The translations under genes were made by a program, and so were the position numbers. Of a stretch of DNA of 64,000 nucleotides, positions 24,479 to 25,121 are shown piece by piece (position 1 is the first letter of the stretch; the number at the start of each line of letters is the position of its first letter). The DNA is taken from NCBI GenBank assembly GCA_951812525.1, contig OX638316.1, forward strand, positions 2,598,506 to 2,662,505, written 5' to 3'. This DNA comes from an uncultured Poribacteria bacterium (GTDB lineage Bacteria > Poribacteria > WGA-4E > WGA-3G). The notes below the pieces were generated by a model. It saw only the letters and a list, made by a program, of their open reading frames with translations. It ran no database searches and was not told the origin of the DNA.

Positions 24479-24543
24479 CACCCCATAGGGGTGATATATC
24501 TATAGAATCCGCGCCTCGGTAGGCGAGGTTTCCGAACCTCGCC
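24479..24543. repeat. Hairpin plus GGCGAGGTT palindrome after purD
   Basis: CACCCC-ATA-GGGGTG lies at 24479-24493; a perfect GGCGAGGTT / AACCTCGCC palindrome with loop TCCG is at 24522-24543. Between them is ATATCTATAGAA, which also precedes the palindrome at 61574, so the repeated unit is longer than the palindrome itself. Confidence 0.7.
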
Positions 24544-24602
24544 TGTTTATTCTGTATTGTTATTTTTTATTTTACTATGTAACATTGCGATGGTGCAAAG
24601 AC

Positions 24603-25121
24603 ATGGGACCTGAATTGACATATAAAATCGCCAAGTGTTGTGCTCCACAAGAGGGGGACACAATTACCGGCTATTTCAAAGAAGACGGCACGATTACCGT
24701 CCATGATGCCACCTGCAACGCAATGCAAGGATTGCGAACAGAAAGATTATTGAAAGTAACCTGGGACGAAATTCGGAAAACCGAAACTACAACCGATATT
24801 GCCCTACTCGCCCCTGAATTTGCAGAACTGGATGAGACCGATTACTTTATACTTAAACATCATCAGGAATTGGGGATGGATTATTCCATCGTTGTCGCTG
24901 AAGCCTTAAGAATCCCACTCGAAGAGATGCACCAGCGGCACCGAAAATTAAAAGAACTCGGCGTACTAAAACGGGTTGAAGGACGCATCATCCACTATCG
25001 AAAGAATATTGTTAAAGGCAAATGGATTAAGCACCGAAATCATACCTACTATGAACTGACACCGGAAGGCAAAATGTGGATTGAGGCTTTTGAAAATCAG
25101 CAAACTGCGTCCGAAACTTAG
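24603..25121 (+). CDS. RelA/SpoT zinc-finger (RIS)-like domain fused to a winged-helix region
   Basis: Residues 7-52 match the zinc-finger/RIS domain in the regulatory half of long RelA/SpoT proteins: IAKCCAPQEGDTITGYF, then GTITVHDATC, with Cys12-Cys13 and His34/Cys38 in the CC...HxxxC pattern, and LLKVTW after it. The synthetase, hydrolase, TGS and ACT domains are absent. Residues 60-172 look like a winged helix: DETDYFILKHHQELGMDYS, EALRIPLEEMHQRHRKLKE, LGVLKRVEGRIIHYRK, and HTYYELTPEGKMW as the wing and last helix, somewhat like DUF2250-type proteins. I infer a DNA- or RNA-binding regulator. A TTG at 24585 is an alternative start; the ribosome site is weak for either. Confidence 0.75.
   Translation: MGPELTYKIAKCCAPQEGDTITGYFKEDGTITVHDATCNAMQGLRTERLLKVTWDEIRKTETTTDIALLAPEFAELDETDYFILKHHQELGMDYSIVVAEALRIPLEEMHQRHRKLKELGVLKRVEGRIIHYRKNIVKGKWIKHRNHTYYELTPEGKMWIEAFENQQTASET

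Follow-up and report, generated by a model that had tools for sequence, protein, structure and literature searches.

The window analyzed here is a 64,000-nucleotide stretch from an uncultured Poribacteria bacterium whose genome is a single 5.06-Mb contig. It contains an intact gene for a 172-residue protein in which the RIS/zinc-finger domain (ZFD) of long RelA/SpoT (RSH) enzymes is fused to a DUF2250 winged helix (Table 1). An alternative TTG start at position 24585 is possible; alignments of orthologs begin at the ATG at 24603. Domain searches of the protein found RIS and DUF2250 only, with no further domain of clear score and neither an HD hydrolase nor a SYNTH synthetase domain, as expected from the original prediction that no (p)ppGpp enzyme domain is present. 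A separate full-length Rel is encoded in the same genome.

Table 1. Features of the RIS-DUF2250 fusion gene (positions in the window)
Feature	Position	Strand	Remarks
RIS-DUF2250 fusion gene, 172 aa	24603..25121	+	ATG 24603, stop 25121, ORF intact
RIS/ZFD domain, residues 1-58	24603..24776	+	strands and short helix, RelA-like
Cys12-Cys13, zinc-ligand positions 1-2	24636..24641	+	invariant, 99/99
Gly29, aligned with RelA Arg629; the A-site finger contact is lost in the fusion family	24687..24689	+	
His34, zinc-ligand position 3	24702..24704	+	invariant
Cys38, zinc-ligand position 4	24714..24716	+	invariant
Variable linker, residues 59-76	24777..24830	+	18% identity between phyla
DUF2250 winged-helix domain, residues 77-160	24831..25082	+	
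Probable recognition helix, residues 105-119	24915..24959	+	helix in model; 38% identity between phyla
Basic wing core YRKNIVKGKWIKHRNHTYYE, near-invariant, residues 132-151	24996..25055	+	84% identity between phyla; low model confidence

The N-terminus of the fusion is a genuine RIS/ZFD of the long RelA/SpoT enzymes. Residues 3-58 match the RelA RIS/ZFD, and the domain itself extends over approximately residues 5-58. Comparison of the N-terminus with PDB sequences by phmmer matched RelA chains 8fr8 (E 6.9e-7) and 5iqr/5kps (E 1.6e-4), and a profile of 39 fusion sequences matched the RelA-type chain 6htq (E 5.8e-11). The NCBIfam model TIGR00691 (RelA/SpoT) aligns with the fusion only at its RIS positions, 554-620 (E 4.5e-10). 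Alignment of the fusion profile with the RIS of Poribacteria and Zixibacteria RSH enzymes by hhalign gave a probability of 99.4 and an E of 7.8e-22, the latter being the value for one comparison. In a fold search with an AlphaFold model of the RIS alone (mean pLDDT 84.3), nine RelA/SpoT/Rsh chains ranked first (TMq 0.66-0.73, rmsd 1.5-2.6 A), separated by a clear gap from the next hit, which had a probability of 0.21. The predicted strands and short helix agree with the published description of the RIS (PMC4974054). The original prediction of a RIS/ZFD with its CC...HxxxC residues on a winged-helix protein is borne out by these results: sequence, profile and fold searches agree, C12, C13, H34 and C38 are kept in all 99 distinct homologs, and hhalign, TIGR00691 and the fold search revealed neither the lack of a RIS-like fold nor a different small domain. 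The sequence, profile and fold tests rule out a chance resemblance. In a tree of RIS domains, those of the fusion split from those of RSH enzymes (split support 0.82, from a short alignment). An origin by recent local duplication of the Rel in this genome is rejected on the basis of this tree and of the presence of the fusion in both phyla.

The fusion shares with the RSH RIS/ZFD (CC) domain its fold, the C-C...H-x3-C ligands and the core motif CCxP...I.GY....VH...C...RL..W. Unlike in RSH enzymes, the RIS of the fusion is free and N-terminal, without an HD, SYNTH, TGS, helical or ACT/RRM domain. In RSH enzymes the RIS is a ribosome-docking domain (PMC4974054; PMC5829649). R629 in the RIS of E. 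coli RelA contacts the 23S A-site finger, and R629E by itself weakens RelA function on ribosomes (PMC7058999). In the fusion, the TRGRG loop bearing Arg629 is replaced with a KEDG- or SHDN-like sequence, and the equivalent residue is Arg in none of the 99 distinct fusions, being mostly Gly, Ser or Asn.

The C-terminus (residues 77-160) is a near full-length match to Pfam DUF2250 (PF10007; E 8e-15; score 55.2 bits, curated cut-off 24.4), and the model matches all 39 fusion members. The Pfam text describes DUF2250 as conserved in archaea, whereas here the domain is bacterial and, in the genomes examined, preceded by a RIS. DUF2250 is mentioned in two papers, in one of them as a bare entry in a plasmid gene table; the other concerns human receptor genes. 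The whole-protein model (mean pLDDT 85.7; 54-66 for wing residues 131-150) had as fold matches DNA-binding regulators of the MarR type and AspA, a PadR-like centromere protein, with TMt reaching 0.85 at prob 1.00. The winged-helix fold matches are mostly DNA-binding regulators rather than RNA binders, which points to DNA binding by the winged helix and weakens the earlier suggestion that the protein could bind structured RNA. Pfam PadR, MarR_2 and HTH_45 match the fusion weakly (lowest E over the 39 members: 0.003 for PadR, 0.042 for MarR_2), with no clear MarR/PadR family-profile match among these members, and the fusion profile gave weak hits to HTH regulators among solved structures. MarR/PadR regulators and pNOB8 AspA share with the fusion the predicted winged-helix fold and a wing ending in Y-x-[LI]-T-x-x-G. 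However, the fusion has a longer basic wing with an invariant W-x-KHRNHTYY, in addition to its N-terminal RIS.

Conservation between the phyla is uneven. Identity is 84% in the wing core (132-151), 38% in the recognition helix, 37% in the RIS and 18% in the linker. The wing motif W-[IMV]-KHRNHTYY (window positions 25023-25052 and homologs), which includes an HxxH pair, is almost invariant across phyla. KHRNHTYY served as a search pattern in the scan for relatives, and the motif was therefore rechecked in Zixibacteria found by profile only; the stretch was present wherever readable, two sequences being masked and one split by a frameshift. Near-invariance of the wing next to a recognition helix of just 38% identity makes the ligand of the wing seem universal.

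The fusion is conserved in other genomes. Among 85 Poribacteria genomes, 67 carry it: 57 of 59 in the family of the window, all nine in a sister family, and a single genome from a further family of the class, where the copy is interrupted by a contig end; the two remaining Poribacteria hits are RSH. About 75 of 132 Zixibacteria genomes also encode it (both tallies are the authors' own count). The gene is chromosomal and single-copy in almost every genome, with two copies in the genome G113. The DUF2250 model gave exactly one hit, at the fusion, in each of six Zixibacteria genomes, and the fusion is the main hit in every DUF2250-positive Poribacteria genome, where extra hits are only weak and DtxR/MntR-like. 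Candidate DUF2250 paralogs in the sister family (L180, L181 and L182) were likewise rejected as DtxR/MntR-like by eye with weak DUF2250 scores. Poribacteria and Zixibacteria fusions are about 40-48% identical, similar to the full-length Rel proteins (38-44%), which suggests an old descent of the fusion. The scan retained 80 of 137 relatives, and phyla other than these two may also contain carriers. A phage or plasmid origin was rejected: no relative was found on viral contigs and no DUF2250 match in phages or plasmids, and those plasmid-collection matches to the N-terminus that carry an annotation are RSH. As far as the literature could be searched, the conserved combination of RIS and DUF2250 seems not to have been described; queries about a stand-alone RIS returned nothing relevant and no paper on a free form. 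The coupling of a RIS to a winged helix, conserved in two uncultured phyla, suggests that the RIS is a portable module. The fusion also provides a small protein for asking what the RIS alone binds, whether the ribosome, a partner or a metal.

In the family of the window, the gene order is purD, the fusion gene, and genes for a VWA protein, an SDR protein and a polyprenyl synthetase. The VWA gene is directly next to the fusion gene in most Poribacteria of this family, and in the sister family the two are separated by a MATE-like gene. The VWA neighbor is missing from every Zixibacteria locus read. Their neighbors differ and vary, and include a DUF819-like transporter and a zinc metallopeptidase-like protein (names taken from translated sequences rather than a family search). 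In one Zixibacteria locus (fusion gene at L111:7971-8483), secY-adk-map-rpsD-rpoA-rplQ-like genes, also named from translations, stand upstream of the fusion gene, an arrangement absent from the other loci read. Because neighbors differ and vary between the phyla, a function tied to a neighbor is unlikely.

The leading explanation, in which confidence is evenly balanced, is that this conserved, chromosomally encoded fusion binds DNA with its winged helix, as a regulator or a nucleoid-type protein, and has the RIS as a zinc-structured module for interaction or dimerization. The DUF2250 half would bind DNA through its MarR/PadR-like fold and unusually long basic wing. The RIS, a homolog of the domain in long RSH enzymes, would serve dimerization or partner binding, and its zinc site is possibly the sensing point. 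The protein would act on distant genes rather than on its neighbors, and it fits such long-range action that the neighbors differ between the phyla. The MarR/AspA fold matches, the weak HTH profile matches, the C-C-H-C set in all 99 homologs and the coincidence of DUF2250 hits with the fusion are consistent with this explanation, as is the published proposal of the RSH ZFD as a dimerization route (cited in PMC6719525). However, a recognition helix at 38% identity beside a wing at 84% is the opposite of the pattern expected when a regulator recognizes a specific sequence in a conserved operator. Moreover, a search for a shared upstream palindrome as a candidate autoregulatory operator found none, and the wing is modeled with low confidence.

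It is possible, though less likely than DNA binding and on balance doubtful, that the fusion is a ribosome- or RNA-associated factor, the RIS docking at the A-site finger/S19 bridge in the manner of RelA and the basic wing contacting rRNA or tRNA. Such a protein would report on or modulate translation, or compete with Rel for the ribosome. The retained C-C pair and RIS fold fit the docking role of the domain in RSH enzymes (PMC4974054; PMC5829649), and the near-invariant wing core in two phyla would suit a ligand that itself does not vary, for instance rRNA; the argument for a universal ligand gives this role its place. However, the Arg629 equivalent is never Arg, when R629E weakens RelA on ribosomes (PMC7058999), an ACT/RRM domain is missing, the winged-helix fold neighbors bind DNA, and linkage to ribosomal genes is confined to the single locus L111. 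The idea in the original prediction that a free RIS senses stalled ribosomes is weakened, as far as the RelA manner is concerned, by the loss of this Arg and the lack of an ACT/RRM domain; the RIS fold and C-C-H-C ligands are kept. It is improbable that the RSH anchor was moved onto the winged helix as a ribosome tether, with the invariant wing reading an invariant RNA or DNA element. If true, Poribacteria and Zixibacteria would possess a translation-sensing regulator independent of (p)ppGpp synthesis.

A zinc- or redox-responsive regulator, in which the RIS C-C-H-C site would change with metal or oxidation and switch DNA binding, perhaps with the participation of winged-helix histidines H87, H113, H144 and H147, is similarly hard to favor. 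The four ligand positions are invariant, as are H87, H144 and H147, with H113 nearly so, and the winged-helix fold matches include two zinc sensors, AdcR and ZitR. However, these are just two of many MarR matches, and no metal-homeostasis gene was recognized as a recurrent neighbor in the Poribacteria and Zixibacteria loci read. The C-C-H-C ligands in RSH enzymes are, moreover, probably structural. Finally, it is very improbable that the fusion regulates or partners the VWA membrane protein, as suggested previously from its downstream gene: this gene is next or, after the MATE-like gene, next but one in the two Poribacteria families, but its conservation stops within that phylum, and it is absent from all Zixibacteria loci read, where neighbors vary.

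The DNA upstream of the gene was considered separately. An autoregulatory operator was rejected: no shared upstream palindrome was found among orthologs, and the window's own palindrome, GGCGAGGTTTCCGAACCTCGCC (24522-24543, between purD and the fusion gene), is a dispersed repeat of the genome. With up to 2 mismatches it has 72 forward and 63 reverse genome matches (one place can count on both strands), versus zero for the reversed control. It also scores as a terminator-like hairpin, and the ortholog in L023 has a related palindrome upstream. The Zixibacteria gene is closely preceded by a TATATT-like box, roughly 6-8 bases 5' of the ATG (L110, L112, L113, L118, L121, L126, L128, L129, L132, L133, L142 and others). 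A TA..TT-type match occurs in 16 of 36 orthologs versus 10 of 125 neighboring ORFs, counts that ignore kinship and use crudely chosen start codons. The position of the TATATT-like box suggests that the Zixibacteria fusion gene may be transcribed as a leaderless mRNA.
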